Positions 30,853-37,027 of a stretch of 64,000 nt of DNA are shown piece by piece; position 1 is the first letter of the stretch, and each line of letters begins with the position of its first letter. The position numbers and the translations under genes are program-made. The notes under the pieces were generated by a model that did no database searches, was not told the origin of the DNA, and worked only from the letters and a program-made list of their open reading frames with translations. Source of the DNA: Myxococcales bacterium (GTDB lineage: Bacteria; Myxococcota_A; Polyangia; Polyangiales; Houyiibacteriaceae); the NCBI GenBank assembly GCA_019637115.1, contig JAHBWH010000005.1, positions 1 to 64,000 of the forward strand. The letters are read 5' to 3'.

Positions 30853-31188
30853 ATGAGCGAGTCCGAAGCCCTCGTGGTCCTCTGCACCGCCCCCGACGCC
30901 GACACCGCGGCGCGCCTCGCGCGTGGACTCGTCGAGGCGAGGTTGGCCGCCTGCGTGAACATCCTCGGCGGGGTCCGCAGCTTCTACGTGTGGAAGGGTG
31001 AGGTGCAGGACGACGCCGAGCATCAGCTCGTGTGCAAGACCGATCGCGCCCACCTCGACGCCTTGATGTCGTGGGTGCGCGCCGAGCACCCCTACGAGGT
31101 CCCCGAGCTCCTCGCGCTCCCCGTCACGGGCGGGTCGGCGGGCTACCTCGCGTGGCTCCGCGCCGAGCTCGGATCCCCCCAATCATGA
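30853..31188 (+). CDS. cutA: divalent cation tolerance protein CutA
   Basis: Small 111-aa protein matching Cut[52 protein letters not shown], and [24 protein letters not shown]. CutA forms trimers and is tied to copper tolerance and protein stability; its mechanism is debated. TATGCT lies 6 nt before the ATG. The stop overlaps the next start (ATGA), so the two genes form an operon. Confidence 0.93.
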
Positions 31189-31778
31189 GGAGGCTGGCCT
31201 CCGCGCTCGTCACCACGCTCGCGCTCGGCTGCGGCGCCCACGCGCCGCCGCCCCCTGCGCCCCTCGCGCCCGCGACCGATCGCGATCCGGAGCCGTGGGT
31301 GCCGCCGCCGGCGAGCGAGGCCCCGGCGGGAGGAACCGTCTCACTGAGCATCGCGGGCGGCGACGCTCAGGCGAGGCTCGTCGCCCTGCGCGTCGTCACC
31401 ACCATCCGCGACGGAGACGAGGCCTCGCTCTTGGCGCTCCTCGACGACCCGCTCGCGCGTGCGCAGCCACGCCCGAGCGCCGCACGCATCGGCCGCGAGC
31501 AGATCGTCGAGATGGCGATGCGCAGCCCGCGACGGAGCGACCTCGCGACCGAAGCGACCCTCGAAGAGCTCGTCGAGGTCGAGCAGATCGAGGTCATGCC
31601 GCTCTCCGAGCTCATGCCGTCTCCGCCCGAGGGGCTGCTCCCGACCGACTGGGTGGTCTACCTCCCGCTCACCGCCACGGGTCGACGCTCCTTCCGCTTC
31701 CTCCTCAACGGCTGGCACCTGCGCGGCGCCGTGATCGTCCGCGACGCAGGCGGCGGCCCGAGGGTCGTCGGCCTCTGA
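31185..31778 (+). CDS. small lipoprotein, function unknown
   Basis: Predicted lipoprotein of 197 aa. Signal peptide [16 protein letters not shown] gives a lipobox followed by a Pro-rich linker (PPPPAPLAPATDR). The mature part has a helical and a beta-rich piece (SARIGREQIVEMAMRSPRRSD; SFRFLLNGWHLRGAVIV). The latter resembles the core of a small nuclear-transport-factor-2-like domain, which would fit a cone-shaped binding fold, but this is a guess. The start overlaps cutA by ATGA. A hairpin follows the stop. Confidence 0.7.
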   Translation: MRRLASALVTTLALGCGAHAPPPPAPLAPATDRDPEPWVPPPASEAPAGGTVSLSIAGGDAQARLVALRVVTTIRDGDEASLLALLDDPLARAQPRPSAARIGREQIVEMAMRSPRRSDLATEATLEELVEVEQIEVMPLSELMPSPPEGLLPTDWVVYLPLTATGRRSFRFLLNGWHLRGAVIVRDAGGGPRVVGL

Positions 31779-31879: not shown

Positions 31880-32695
31880 TCAGATCGAGGCCGTCCGCAC
31901 GTTGAGGTTTCGGTCGACGACCACGATCGACCCCTGGTCGATCGCCCGCCAATCCGATGGCAGCGGCTCGGCGGGCTCGCCTACCACCATCACGTAGCGG
32001 AGCGTCGCCGGCCCGCCGGACGAAGGCGGCAGATCGGGGGGGGGATCGTGCAGCCCGCGGCGCTCGACCACCGCCATCGGCCCGCCGCGCCGCAAGGCAT
32101 AGAGGGCGCGGCCGTTGGTGAGCACGAGGTTCAGCCCGCTCTCGGGTCCGCGGACCTCCGCGACCACGCGGTCGACGAGCGCGACGGCCGAGCGGAGCGC
32201 CGAGATCACGACCTCCTCGTCGACGTCGGGTCGGTCGAGCTGCCCCGCGTCGTGCAGGAAGCTGAGCACGACGTAGAAGAGCAGCTCGCTGTCGGTCGTG
32301 CCCCGCAGCCCGCGCGAGAGGAAGTCGGGGAGCGAGGCGCGCAGCGTCCCGGAGATCGCCTCGAAGCGGCCGATCGTGCCGAGGTGCGCGAAGAGCCAGC
32401 GTCGCATGCGGAAGGGGTGGGTGTTCTGCGTGCGGAAGTCACCGACGGTGGGTTGCCGTAGGTGCAAGACCACGCAATCGGAGACCACGTCGCGCGCGAG
32501 CTGCTGCCAGTCGACCGCGCCGGAGAGCTGTGGGCGCTTCTTATGGAGCACCTCGCCGTTCTGGTAGAAGCCGAGCCCCCAGCCCGTCGGTGTCGTGGCC
32601 GCGGTCGCGCTCGACGCGACCACGGCCCGCTCCTGATAGAGCGCCGCAGCGAGTCGATCCGAACGATTCGCCATGTATCCAACTAGCCGTGCCAT
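31880..32695 (-). CDS. class II glutamine amidotransferase-like protein lacking the catalytic Cys
   Basis: Protein of 271 aa aligning with YafJ/GATase-II (NTn hydrolase) proteins: LHLRQPTVGDFRTQNTHPFRMRRWLFAHLGTIGRF and GTTDSELLFYVVLSFL. The family uses Cys at position 2 after Met removal. Here the N-terminus is MARLVGY, so Cys is replaced by Ala. The glutamine-site HNG is HLG (residues 104-106). It should therefore not release ammonia from glutamine and may be a regulatory or scaffolding pseudoenzyme. GGAGG lies just before the ATG at 32695. Confidence 0.85.
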   Translation of the reverse strand: MARLVGYMANRSDRLAAALYQERAVVASSATAATTPTGWGLGFYQNGEVLHKKRPQLSGAVDWQQLARDVVSDCVVLHLRQPTVGDFRTQNTHPFRMRRWLFAHLGTIGRFEAISGTLRASLPDFLSRGLRGTTDSELLFYVVLSFLHDAGQLDRPDVDEEVVISALRSAVALVDRVVAEVRGPESGLNLVLTNGRALYALRRGGPMAVVERRGLHDPPPDLPPSSGGPATLRYVMVVGEPAEPLPSDWRAIDQGSIVVVDRNLNVRTASI

Positions 32696-33082
32696 GTCGC
32701 CTCCAATGCTCGCTCCTCTCCCTCGTCGTCGCCCTGCGTCACCTCTTCACACTCGGGGTGCTCGCCCGAACCGCGGCCACCCTGCCTGCGGTGCTCCATG
32801 CATCGTGTTCCGTCGTGCTCCGTGTCCGTCGTGTTCCTTCGCGTCCTCCGCGTCGTCTCCGCGTCGCCCTTGTCGAGCGCTACGCCTTCACCGCGCTTCG
32901 ACCAGCCCTGCCGCTCGTGCCTTGGACGCACGAGTCACGCTTCCGTTCACGGGCCGCGGGGCGACGCTTGAAGCTCCGCCGAGCGCCACCCAAGGGTCAC
33001 CCCATCGGCAGCCGCGCGGCGAGGCGGGCCCGAACGTCGTTCTGTCAACCCGCCCGCGGCGGGAACCTTCAGGCTCGACGCC
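32696..33082. other. 387-bp intergenic region with imperfect ACGACGG-type repeats
   Basis: Between the amidotransferase-like gene and the small membrane protein. Around 32800-32870 the minus strand reads as imperfect repeats of the kind ACACGACGGA/GCACGACGGA/ACGCGG. No gene is supported. Long open frames here run through compositional bias. Confidence 0.5.
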
Positions 33083-33286: not shown

Positions 33287-36013
33287 TCAGAAGTATTGCT
33301 CGAAAGCGATCAGCGTCGTGATGGGCGGCAGGTTCCGCGCGTCCTCACCGCGGATCAGCGGCACCGCGAGGTCGAAGACGAGGACGGCGGGCTGCACGCC
33401 GCCATACTCGAAGTGCGCGCGCAGACCCACACCGACCTCCGCGCCGGCCACGACGTCGCGGCCGTCCGTCGCCGCGAAGACCACGCCCGCCCCCACGAAG
33501 GCTGCGAGCTGGAGCTCCCGCACCCACGCGAGGTGGGCGAGGTTCAGGTCCAGGTCGCCAAACGCCGTCGGCGTGAAGCGCCCCTCGACGACGGCGAAGG
33601 CGCGCGCGCGACCGAGGACCTCCGCGTTCTGGTAGCCCCGGAGCAAGAAGCGACCGCCGAGGCCGGGGCGCTCTCCGGGGAGGGGCTCGCCGATGACCCC
33701 AGCGGCGCCAGCGGCGACGACGATCGCGCCGCGGAGCCCCAGCGGCCGGGTGAGGTTCGCGCGGATCGACGGCGAGAGCGTCCACGAGCGGGTGCCGTCG
33801 TCGCGGAAGACCAAGCTCGACGCCAGCGAGGCCCACGCGGCGCCGCCGTGGCGCGGGTCGAGGAACCACCGCAGCGAGCTCCAGCCGGCGGCGAGCTGGG
33901 CCCCCAGCCGGAAGCCGCCGGGCTCGTCGTCGCGTGCGAACCCGCCGTGGAGTCGATCGAAGTAGATCCCGGGCGCGATGAAGCCACGCCGCACGTTCGT
34001 GTCGCGCGGCGCGCCCAGGCCTCGCACCCAGCGCAGCAGGCCCCCGGTGCTGCGCGGATCGGTGGAGAGTCGCAGGCCGATCGTGTCCTCGGTGTCGTAT
34101 TGGCGCCGCATCGCGACGTCGAGCAGCCCGACCAGCACGCGTTCGGTCGCGCCGACCGCGAGGTTGAACGACTGCACGACCGGCGGTCGCCACGGGTGTC
34201 GCGTCGCGTCGTCGGCGCGCGGATGATCCCGCGCGACCTCGTCGCTCTGCGCGAGGCGCCCGCGCGGGTCGACCAGGACGTCGCGCAGCCGCCCCTCGGT
34301 CTCGACCTCGACGACGCCCTCGGCGCCCGCCCCATCCCAGAGCGCGCTCACGTCGCCGCCGCGCGCGCGGACCCGCACCTCGACGGGCTCGCGCCTCGGA
34401 TCGCCGTCGCGACGGATCCGGATCCGGTGGCGATACCCACCCTCGGGCCTCGAGCTCGTCTCGACCCCCACGAGGACGTAGTTCACCTCGGTCCCTGCGG
34501 CGCCGAGCCACTCGTCGAGCCGCGACGCCATCTCGGGCGCCACGCGCGCGAGCGCCTGCCGCGCGGGCTCGACGCGCTGCAAGAGCGCCTCGCTGAACGA
34601 CGCGAAGCGCTCGTCTCCGAGGGCGTCGCGCGCCATCTCGAGGATCCGACGCCCCTTCGAGCGAGGACGCCGCGCGTAGGCGGGATCGTCGCGGAACGGA
34701 TCCGGCTCCACTATGCCCGCGAAGTAGACGTCCGGGAACGCCGTCTGGGGTGCGTAGAGCAGTTGGTCGATCGCAGGGTGGAAGCCGGCCCACCCCAGCA
34801 GCTCGCGCGCGCTCTGCGCCCGCCCCTGACGTCGCACCTCGTCGAGATCGGCGAGGAGCGCCGCGCGCAGATCCGTCGACCACGCGCGGTCGTCCGGGGG
34901 CTCGAGCGCGGCGGTCGCCGGACAGGAGGCGAGCGCCTGCCGAAAGAGCGCGCGCCGCACCGCGCGGTCGTGGAACGAGCGCGCCGCCTCGTGGGGGAAG
35001 ATCTGGAAGGCGCGATCCGAGACGAGCGTCAGCCCTGGCGCCGTCGAGGCGAGCTCGGTGCGAGAGGGGACGAGCGCGACGACGAAGCTCGACTCGATCG
35101 GCGTCGCGCAGCCCGCCTCGCGGAGCATCGCGAGCGTGCGCGCGGCGTCGGACGCGACCCGCTCGAGCTGCTCGAGCACGTAGACCTCGGTCAGGTCGCG
35201 GATCGACGTGACGCCCGTCGCGTCGGCGGGAGGAGGCTCGGCGAGCGCGCGCGGGGAGACGACGACGAGGCGGTGCCCGTCGGGCAGCGCGCGCTCGTAG
35301 CGGTGGAGGCGCGGGGCGATCACCAGCGGGACGAACTCGTCGCTGACGCGGCGCAGCGTCGTCACACCACGCCCGCTCTCCGCGCCGCCCGGCGCGAACG
35401 CCTCGAGCCCGTCGGCGACGGTCACGCTCACGCGATGTCGCGTGTCACGGATCGTGTCGCCTTCGACGGGGAGGGGATACCACGGCCCCGTCATCGTGAC
35501 GCGGCGGCCGACGCGACCGAGCCGCCCGTAGCGCTCCGGGAGCGCCATCGAGAAACGAACCTCCACCACCCGCGCGCCGGGCGGTACCGCGACGATCAGG
35601 TCGCCGCCGGCGACGTCTCTCCCGCGCGGATCGCCGACCGGCGCGCGCTCCCAGCGCGGCTCGGCGGCGACGCCGTCGACGCTCGAGGCGACGTCCATCT
35701 CCCGCGTATCGACCTCGCGCGGGAAGACCCACCGAGACGAGCGCTGGTCCATCGCCGAGGGGGCGACCGCCAGACGATCGGCGTAGACCCAGAGCCGCAG
35801 CGGCCCCGCCCCTTCGACGGAATAGCGCGCGCGCCCCCGCAGCGCGCCGCGACGGTCGACGCGCGCGACGACGTCGATCGAACGGACCGTGACCGCTGCG
35901 TGGTCACCCCGCGCCCCCACCGCATCGTTCTCCGTGGCGGTCTGCGCGCGCGCCGGGCCTGCGCACACGACGCAGATGCCGACGAGCACAACGACCCAGG
36001 AGCGTCGACGCAC
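33287..36013 (-). CDS. peptidase-M1-like domain fused to Omp85-type outer membrane barrel
   Basis: Protein of 908 aa. GTG start at 36013 (TAGAGG box 5 nt upstream) gives a signal peptide ending PARAQ. The N-terminal part (about 30-240) is beta-rich (LWVYADRLAV, GPWYPLPVEG), resembling the N-terminal domain of M1 aminopeptidases. Around residue 340 sits PHEAARSFHD: a degenerate HExxH where the second His is Arg. From about 590 the sequence becomes barrel-like, with the Omp85 landmark GGRFLLRGY near 785-793 and an FEQYF end. This suggests a passenger exported and displayed by its own Omp85 barrel, as in type V-d systems. Protease activity is doubtful because of the missing His. Confidence 0.7.
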   Translation of the reverse strand: MRRRSWVVVLVGICVVCAGPARAQTATENDAVGARGDHAAVTVRSIDVVARVDRRGALRGRARYSVEGAGPLRLWVYADRLAVAPSAMDQRSSRWVFPREVDTREMDVASSVDGVAAEPRWERAPVGDPRGRDVAGGDLIVAVPPGARVVEVRFSMALPERYGRLGRVGRRVTMTGPWYPLPVEGDTIRDTRHRVSVTVADGLEAFAPGGAESGRGVTTLRRVSDEFVPLVIAPRLHRYERALPDGHRLVVVSPRALAEPPPADATGVTSIRDLTEVYVLEQLERVASDAARTLAMLREAGCATPIESSFVVALVPSRTELASTAPGLTLVSDRAFQIFPHEAARSFHDRAVRRALFRQALASCPATAALEPPDDRAWSTDLRAALLADLDEVRRQGRAQSARELLGWAGFHPAIDQLLYAPQTAFPDVYFAGIVEPDPFRDDPAYARRPRSKGRRILEMARDALGDERFASFSEALLQRVEPARQALARVAPEMASRLDEWLGAAGTEVNYVLVGVETSSRPEGGYRHRIRIRRDGDPRREPVEVRVRARGGDVSALWDGAGAEGVVEVETEGRLRDVLVDPRGRLAQSDEVARDHPRADDATRHPWRPPVVQSFNLAVGATERVLVGLLDVAMRRQYDTEDTIGLRLSTDPRSTGGLLRWVRGLGAPRDTNVRRGFIAPGIYFDRLHGGFARDDEPGGFRLGAQLAAGWSSLRWFLDPRHGGAAWASLASSLVFRDDGTRSWTLSPSIRANLTRPLGLRGAIVVAAGAAGVIGEPLPGERPGLGGRFLLRGYQNAEVLGRARAFAVVEGRFTPTAFGDLDLNLAHLAWVRELQLAAFVGAGVVFAATDGRDVVAGAEVGVGLRAHFEYGGVQPAVLVFDLAVPLIRGEDARNLPPITTLIAFEQYF

Positions 36014-36121
36014 GCCCCCCTCTACCGAGAATCGGCGACCCGCGCCAGGGCACCACGGTTGCCCCCCACAGAACCGCCCCATTCCTGGCGCGCGACGCTC
36101 GGCTCGGGCCATGCTTCCCGC

Positions 36122-37027
36122 GTGAGCGACGAGCCGCGCGAGGTGAGCGACCTCCGGGTCGACGAGTACCTCGACTTCCTGAAGGTCGAGCGCGGCCTCT
36201 CGAAGAACACCCTCGAGGCCTACGCCAAAGATCTGAGCCGCTGGCTCAGCTTCCTCGAACGAGAGGGCGTGAGCCTCGACGAGGCACGTGGCGGGACCGT
36301 CGCCGCGTTCCTCGTCGCGCTCGCAGGGGACGGGGTCTCCGCCCGCTCGCAGGCGCGGTACCTCAGCGCGCTGCGCGGGCTCTACCGTCACCTGGTGCGC
36401 GAGCGGTACCTCAAGGAGGATCCGACGGCGCTCGTCGACCGACCGAAGCTCGGCCAGCGCCTCCCCTCGGTGCTGACGCGAGACGAGGTCATTCGCCTGC
36501 TGGCGGCGCCAGCGGGCGAGGGGCCGCGCGAGGTTCGGGACCGCGCGATGCTCCACACGATGTATGCGGCCGGGCTTCGGGTGACCGAGCTGGTCGACCT
36601 CGATCTGAACTCGCTGAACCTCGAGACCGGCTTCGTCGTGCCCTTCGGCAAAGGAGACAAGCGTCGCGTCGTGCCGCTCGGCGAGTTCGCGAAGGACGCC
36701 CTCCTCGAGTACCTGCGGACCGTGCGACCCGCGTGGGCCTCGCCAGGCAGTCGCGCGGTCTTCCTCACCCACCACGGCCGCCCGATGACGCGCCAGGGCT
36801 TCTGGAAGAACATCAAGCGCTACGCGGCGGCGGCCGGCATCACGAAGGTCGTCTCGCCCCACAAGCTCCGGCACAGCTTCGCGACGCATCTCCTCATCGG
36901 CGGCGCGGACCTGCGCGTCGTGCAGACGATGCTCGGCCACGCCGACATCGCGACCACCCAGGTCTACACCCACGTGACCGGCGAGCGCCTGCACGAGATC
37001 CACGAGCGCCACCACCCGCGCGGCTGA
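36122..37027 (+). CDS. XerC/XerD-type tyrosine recombinase
   Basis: Protein of 301 aa with an N-terminal SAM-like DNA-binding domain (EYLDFLKVERGLSKNTLEAYAKDLSRWLSFL) and a tyrosine recombinase catalytic domain. Catalytic residues: R153 (AAGLRVTEL), H248, R251 (HKLRHSFATHL), H273 (GHADIATTQ) and the nucleophile Y282 (VYTHV). Length and lack of mobile genes around it fit a chromosome-dimer resolution recombinase of the XerC/XerD type rather than a phage integrase. The GTG at 36122 follows a CATGCT box. Confidence 0.9.
   Translation: MSDEPREVSDLRVDEYLDFLKVERGLSKNTLEAYAKDLSRWLSFLEREGVSLDEARGGTVAAFLVALAGDGVSARSQARYLSALRGLYRHLVRERYLKEDPTALVDRPKLGQRLPSVLTRDEVIRLLAAPAGEGPREVRDRAMLHTMYAAGLRVTELVDLDLNSLNLETGFVVPFGKGDKRRVVPLGEFAKDALLEYLRTVRPAWASPGSRAVFLTHHGRPMTRQGFWKNIKRYAAAAGITKVVSPHKLRHSFATHLLIGGADLRVVQTMLGHADIATTQVYTHVTGERLHEIHERHHPRG

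Follow-up and report, generated by a model that had tools for sequence, protein, structure and literature searches.

A myxobacterial clade of class II amidotransferase-like proteins without the nucleophilic cysteine, and its putative lipoprotein neighbour

In a clade of myxobacterial proteins with the fold of class II glutamine amidotransferases, the nucleophilic cysteine appears to have been lost throughout; the loss of the cysteine chemistry is well supported, as firmly as sequence allows. The member from which we started is encoded in a stretch of 64,000 nucleotides of a Myxococcales bacterium ("the window"). On balance, and with a slight preference, we read it as a non-catalytic binding or sensing protein of the Ntn fold that is functionally tied to a putative envelope lipoprotein.

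The gene and its product

The open reading frame at 31880-32695 (minus strand) is uninterrupted and begins with ATG. The features of the gene that are needed first are:

31880-32695, minus strand: coding sequence of the pseudo-amidotransferase, 271 aa, class II GATase_4 fold without Cys2 (ORF reading, Pfam and AF2)
32700-32704, minus strand: GGAGG, a ribosome-binding-like site that ends 4 nt before the ATG (sequence reading)
32690-32692, minus strand: codon 2, Ala where the nucleophilic Cys is expected
32378-32386, minus strand: H104-L105-G106, an altered HNG motif

The initial annotation had proposed that the Cys at position 2 is replaced by Ala and HNG by HLG, with the rest of the fold retained. 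All of this is borne out: residue 2 of the ORF is Ala, residues 104-106 read H-L-G, and the Pfam profile GATase_4 (PF13230) matches the protein with 71.4 bits (E 7.6e-20; cut-off 23), in line with the AF2 model and the structural matches given below. GATase_4 was also matched at E <= 0.001 by 21/21 members of sequence set A1. Neither the N-terminal Cys nucleophile nor the HNG motif of active class II amidotransferases is present, Ala2 and Leu105 standing in their place. HNG had also been described as glutamine-binding; the change of the motif stands, but its Asn belongs to the oxyanion hole and is not the principal clamp for glutamine.

An upstream start that supplies an N-terminal Cys had been raised as an objection to this reading; it was looked for and is absent. 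Ahead of the ATG the frame stays open for 17 codons, none of them for Cys, and the sole Cys of the protein is C74, so that an N-terminal Cys is impossible from any start, upstream or internal. The orthologue in a genome of the same genus (G001) is 80% identical and also has Ala2, which makes an error in this single sequence unlikely. A frameshift or assembly error is unlikely as well, given the Cys-less orthologues across many genomes and named records.

The genome of the window (8.9 Mb in 434 contigs) holds one further homologue at E <= 0.001, on contig C151 (G000:C151), which is 31% identical, starts with MCRLLG and has the HNG motif. It is conceivable, if very unlikely, that the Cys-less protein pairs with this Cys2 paralogue and regulates it. 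Both kinds do occur in many genomes of the relatives set, and 11/11 of the weaker matches that were fetched begin with MCR, but G033, G041, G046 and G053 each have a single match, and a Cys2 paralogue is therefore not required.

The cysteine-less clade

Homologues, Cys-bearing ones included, were found in 54/57 genomes of the relatives set (own genome included, E <= 0.001) and in 181/377 genomes of the phylum (E <= 1e-20). A scan of genome contigs with the single sequence gave 21 loci in named records, all titled myxobacterial or Deltaproteobacteria; Myxococcota, Sandaracinus, Polyangiaceae and Sorangium are among the names of the related records, which puts the window with the myxobacteria, presumably in the order Polyangiales.

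From 165 loci we gathered 137 distinct proteins, 132 of which were used for the tree. Left out were two incomplete sequences (L052, L111), one with a match to residues 1-168 only (L072) and two in which Met-Cys is internal and falls at residues 8-9 of the alignment instead of at the N-terminus (L116, L140). Note that the script that chose the starts favoured any start with a following Cys within 20 codons, so that the missing Cys2 cannot be put down to the way starts were chosen.

In this tree, which is of the quick kind, has no inferred root and contains flagged long branches (among them L119, L125, L139, L124, L078 and L130), a single change separates the 30 rows with Cys2 from the 102 rows without it (SH-aLRT 93). 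None of 500 label shuffles on the 132-row tree needed as few as one change. The row L124 (Thr2) adjoins the Cys rows with weak support, and 27 of the 30 Cys rows belong to one subfamily. The split is consistent with one loss of the Cys; in an unrooted tree a gain is formally possible, and we infer that a loss is much likelier because the known active relatives carry the Cys.

The Cys-less rows have at position 2 Ala (45), Ser (31), Gly (16), Thr (4), Pro (4), Met (1) or Arg (1). Conservation of Ala2 had been suggested as the mark of a pseudoenzyme clade. This fails for Ala specifically (45/102) and holds in a wider form, in that a residue other than Cys, mostly a small one, is kept; as far as the alignment goes, the clade-wide trait is the absence of Cys2 and not Ala2 as such.

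Outside a large clade of 84 rows there are 18 Cys-less rows, 16 of them with Ser2 or Thr2, and one of the sequences, L041, combines Ser2 with an intact HNG. This would fit a changed chemistry, in which members with Ser2 or Thr2 would be hydrolases of the Ntn-serine/threonine type, and those with Ala or Gly would rely on water or a different nucleophile. We regard it as unlikely, since Ala or Gly occupies position 2 in 61/102 rows, the window protein included, and Asn105 is lost in 95/102. L041 itself (L041:5414-6241, plus strand) lies outside the large clade and keeps H-x-R and TDSE too; it may have a Ser nucleophile or be a transitional form.

Selection and predicted structure

Nei-Gojobori dN/dS ranged from 0.035 to 0.243 in 15 pairs of Cys-less genes, with the highest value for the window gene and its same-genus orthologue (0.243), which rules out a decaying pseudogene for the clade. 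Two pairs of Cys homologues gave 0.206 and 0.152. The genomes of genus g2 (e.g. L058, L059) measure 2.8-4.4 Mb in the ten that were examined, and dN/dS of their Cys-less gene is 0.035-0.086 in six pairs.

An AF2 model built from 21 sequences is a confident Ntn fold (pLDDT 90.2, pTM 0.90). VIA-align superposed the model on 206 residues of 3mdn at 2.5 A (Z 24.4). A PurF entry reached Z 22.3, and two EgtC entries scored 21.9 (4zfk, holding glutamine) and 21.8 (4zfl, EgtC_C2A plus natural substrate); for GlmS C1A with glutamate (3ooj) Z was 21.1. Taken together, the entries of 3mdn, PurF, EgtC and GlmS match the model with Z 19-24, which assigns it to the Ntn amidotransferase fold. By their titles, 4zfl and 3ooj hold substrate or glutamate in Cys-to-Ala forms, so that such a replacement can leave binding intact, which sets a precedent, made in the laboratory, for the Ala2 found in nature. 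Presumably these solved mutants of EgtC and GlmS keep the Asn of HNG; with their Asn intact, they are no proof of binding where both Cys and Asn are lost.

The initial proposal of a pseudoenzyme is thus upheld as far as sequence data reach, by the one-change split, purifying selection, an intact predicted fold and a kept clamp, with the nucleophile and mostly also the Asn lost. We used as a working definition of a pseudoenzyme clade that the catalytic residue is absent on one side of the tree and that the gene is under purifying selection; both were found, on an unrooted quick tree with long branches.

Residues lost, kept and newly fixed

The residues of the pocket and its surroundings that we discuss are listed here, with counts among the 102 Cys-less rows and, where given, the 30 Cys rows:

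32456-32458, minus strand: Arg80, which the alignments place on the H-x-R Arg of 3mdn, 1te5 and EgtC; 93/102
32291-32293, minus strand: Asp135 of TDSE; kept in 95/102
32402-32410, minus strand: Arg96 (101/102; Cys rows 7/30) and Arg98 (86/102; Cys rows 0/30)
32303-32305, minus strand: Arg131 (93/102; Cys rows 0/30)

Residue 105 is Asn in 7/102 Cys-less rows against 30/30 Cys rows, and residue 104 is His in 58/102 Cys-less rows. Five residues are invariant in all 102 Cys-less rows (Gly40, Pro94, Gly106, Gly132 and Glu137). Beside Asp135 and Arg80, Thr134 (96/102), Asn91 (95/102) and Trp39 (92/102) are widely kept, and Thr83 is found in 71/102.

The Asp of TDSE (Asp135) we take to be the clamp of the amino group of glutamine. 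Arg80, Thr/Ser83, Gly106 and Asp135 are jointly present in 82/102 rows, at least one of them being missing in 20/102; in rows from genomes of the window's order they are jointly present in 64/73. In a simulation of PurF (PMC7953260), the glutamine analogue DON is hydrogen-bonded by Arg73, Thr76 (backbone N), Ala77 and Gly102; Arg80, Thr83 and Gly106 were matched to this clamp through the motifs H-x-R-x-x-T and H-x-G and not through a residue-level structural alignment.

Eight residues are near-fixed in the Cys-less rows and rare in the Cys rows (Arg96, Arg98, Arg131, Asn10, Leu50, Pro123, His148 and Asp149), which gives the Cys-less clade its own conserved signature. Low retention of the residues that the Cys rows have at positions 35, 22, 63, 240, 207 and 58 may mark the subfamily rather than catalysis, because almost all of the Cys rows come from one subfamily (see above).

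The Ntn fold could also be kept purely as a scaffold, that is, as a module for protein interaction with an empty pocket and pocket residues that are structural. We see this as possible, though less probable than binding or sensing. His104 and Thr83 have drifted and a fifth of the rows or so lack a clamp residue (the 20 mentioned above); the newly fixed Arg96, Arg98, Arg131, Pro123, His148 and Asp149 could make an interface; and proteasome subunits with an inactive Ntn fold are described as most likely being scaffolds (PMC9140057). What speaks against an empty pocket is that Arg80 and Asp135, each kept in more than 90% of the rows, stand at positions known for holding the glutamine backbone, the Arg in the PurF simulation and the Asp by the assumption stated above. 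The kept Arg and Asp may be structural in role. All in all, the kept clamp together with the new arginines would favour binding or sensing over a bare scaffold fairly clearly, and the protein probably binds its target without cutting it.

The putative lipoprotein neighbour

The neighbours of the Cys-less gene mostly vary between families, as judged with our gene caller, and a downstream lipoprotein-like gene recurs. Note that the gene caller is home-made and missed the pseudo-amidotransferase gene itself at 11/47 loci, so that the neighbour counts obtained with it are lower bounds. The features in the window are:

31185-31778, plus strand: gene of the putative partner lipoprotein (197 aa; NTF2-like fold by prediction), which runs towards the pseudo-amidotransferase gene
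31230-31232, plus strand: lipobox-like Cys16 of the lipoprotein; present in 12/12 aligned members

Cys16 follows a hydrophobic stretch in all 12 rows, five of which (L040, L043, L049, L050, L051) begin at chosen positions that are not start codons. The lipoproteins form two groups, a Sandaracinaceae type (11 members, the window's included) and a Polyangiaceae type (12 members), labelled after the families in which each was seen. HHalign relates the two with a probability of 97.8%, and a profile made from the Polyangiaceae type only finds the Sandaracinaceae type adjoining the gene (best E among the fetched loci 4e-8).

The AF2 model of the lipoprotein, from 12 sequences, has pLDDT 81 and pTM 0.67. 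It matches 8p33 with Z 13.5 and NTF2, CaMKII hub and ketosteroid-isomerase-like chains with Z 9-10.5. Pfam gave SnoaL_2 with E 0.052 in one member and no match in the window member. We assign the NTF2-like fold with moderate confidence, because the best Foldseek match of the model has an E of only 1.1e-3.

Linkage of the two genes

Linkage was analysed in 132 genomes of the order that are at least 90% complete. The lipoprotein is found in 98 of them (E <= 0.001) and the Cys-less protein in 119 (E <= 8.5e-53, a chosen cut), counting one place per genome, so that weaker rows and the second copies G419:C334 and G419:C362 do not enter. The two genes are adjacent in 92 of the 98 lipoprotein-bearing genomes, which cover six family codes (f1, f3, f4, f7, f9 and f12), and in 89 the lipoprotein lies downstream on the same strand, with a gap of -25 to 221 bases as measured between profile matches and not gene ends. 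The three pairs on opposite strands are those of the window (111 bases apart) and of G043 and G382 (about 1.4 kb).

Among the non-adjacent cases, the Cys-less gene of G412 is cut by a contig end (E 8e-52), and G005 has a much diverged Cys-less partner directly upstream of the lipoprotein (E 1.5e-22). The lipoprotein stands at a contig start in G384, where the Cys-less gene lies near the end of another contig, and in G320, where only a weak Cys-less match is found elsewhere (E 8.6e-15). No Cys-less gene was found beside the lipoprotein of G013 and G110; the contig of G110 ends about 0.56 kb upstream.

A Cys-less gene without a neighbouring lipoprotein was seen in 27 genomes. Ten of these belong to genus g2, where the lipoprotein was found in 0/10 genomes with the Cys-less gene. 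In G384, G046 and G409 the contig ends within about 320 bases downstream of the Cys-less gene, in G040 a local profile does find the lipoprotein (E 2.7e-18), and G050 and G370 have weak lipoprotein matches in place (L081 and L154; E 8.8e-6 and 2.5e-4). For L064, L070, L077 and L078 there is no lipoprotein in the 1.6-8.5 kb downstream, nor is there one in at least 1.6 kb downstream in the named records L038, L041, L044 and L048.

The gene pair is thus a strong but not obligate association. Either gene can be found alone, so that we see a functional tie here and not an obligate complex.

In genus g5, the Cys-less gene of L169 (G005) is strongly diverged, with HLGQP and the clamp Arg lost, and L168 (G013) has no Cys-less match in 3.5 kb around the lipoprotein; decay may be ongoing there.

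Other genes around the locus

In the window's genus, and also in L032, a block of CutA1 and the lipoprotein (30853-31778 of the window, plus strand) is inverted with respect to the usual co-directional order. The two genes of the pair therefore converge, and in the window they cannot share a transcript. A large gene at 33287-36775 (minus strand) belongs to a family that recurs at at least 15/47 loci; it has no Pfam match and no PDB sequence match at E <= 1. The C-terminal part of its product resembles an outer-membrane barrel (GGRFLLRGYQ, which we take to be an Omp85-like motif). CutA, XerD, mdh and the large neighbour were set aside as candidate partners because they are not seen again at the loci of other families, where the lipoprotein persists.

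A possible role

We picture the pseudo-amidotransferase as an Ntn-fold protein without a signal peptide that would no longer hydrolyse glutamine by the class II mechanism. Its pocket may still bind a glutamine-like, gamma-glutamyl or other anionic ligand without turnover, and the protein could then act as a sensor or a regulatory partner. Where the genes are co-directional they may be co-transcribed and serve one process that connects the envelope with a signal in the cytosol. That such a process is envelope-related is suggested by the tie with a putatively exported lipoprotein; the two proteins themselves should not meet, as the lipoprotein is exported and the pseudo-amidotransferase is not (both by prediction). 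A more specific version seems doubtful to us. In it, an amidotransferase that lost its nucleophile would have become, throughout an order, a non-catalytic Ntn protein for sensing glutamine or gamma-glutamyl compounds, and together with its co-transcribed, putatively NTF2-like lipoprotein would couple the nitrogen or thiol status of the cytosol to the envelope.

Comparison with known systems

In the open-licence literature (titles and beginnings of abstracts) we found no description of a class II amidotransferase pseudoenzyme of myxobacteria, nor of a pseudo-amidotransferase that stands by itself, occurs throughout an order and has a lipoprotein gene as its neighbour. The pairing with the lipoprotein gene is new in this analysis and goes beyond the initial annotation. 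As a large and selectively maintained lineage has no nucleophile, the name "glutamine amidotransferase" that it receives from profile libraries is misleading.

EgtC (4zfj, 4zfk, 4zfl; TIGR03442) is similar in being a single-domain Ntn fold (Z about 22 over 214-216 residues), and GWG and the Arg of the H-x-R region align with the window protein. It differs in having Cys2 (as the title of the C2A entry tells) and HNG, where the window protein has Ala2 and HLG. EgtC is an active gamma-glutamyl amidohydrolase of the ergothioneine pathway (PMC9103826). Membership of the window protein in this family is ruled out by its 71.7 bits against TIGR03442, for which the cut-off is 218.65 (NCBIfam).

The closest solved sequences are 3mdn (SPO2029) and 1te5 (PA01), with E 3.8e-11 and 8.5e-7 and Z 24.4 and 21.0, respectively. 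They have HNG in place of the HLG of the window protein; the alignments start past residue 2. The Ntn domains of beta-lactam synthetase and carbapenam synthetase (1jgt, 1q15) show the same type of fold with a weaker match (Z 11.9 and 9.1). These domains, we assume, have no Cys nucleophile and are fused to a synthetase domain.

A further parallel is found in a multi-subunit ring of another Ntn family, the proteasome. Its inactive subunits likewise have the Ntn fold without an active nucleophile (PMC9140057). With nucleophile-less Ntn proteins known from both systems, this kind of pseudoenzyme is not new as such. What the clade adds to it is a series of natural Ntn proteins that have no Cys and keep the clamp residues, and with it a handle on how the pocket of an enzyme may turn into a sensor; the tight pairing with a lipoprotein that has no name in Pfam makes the role of the protein testable by genetics.
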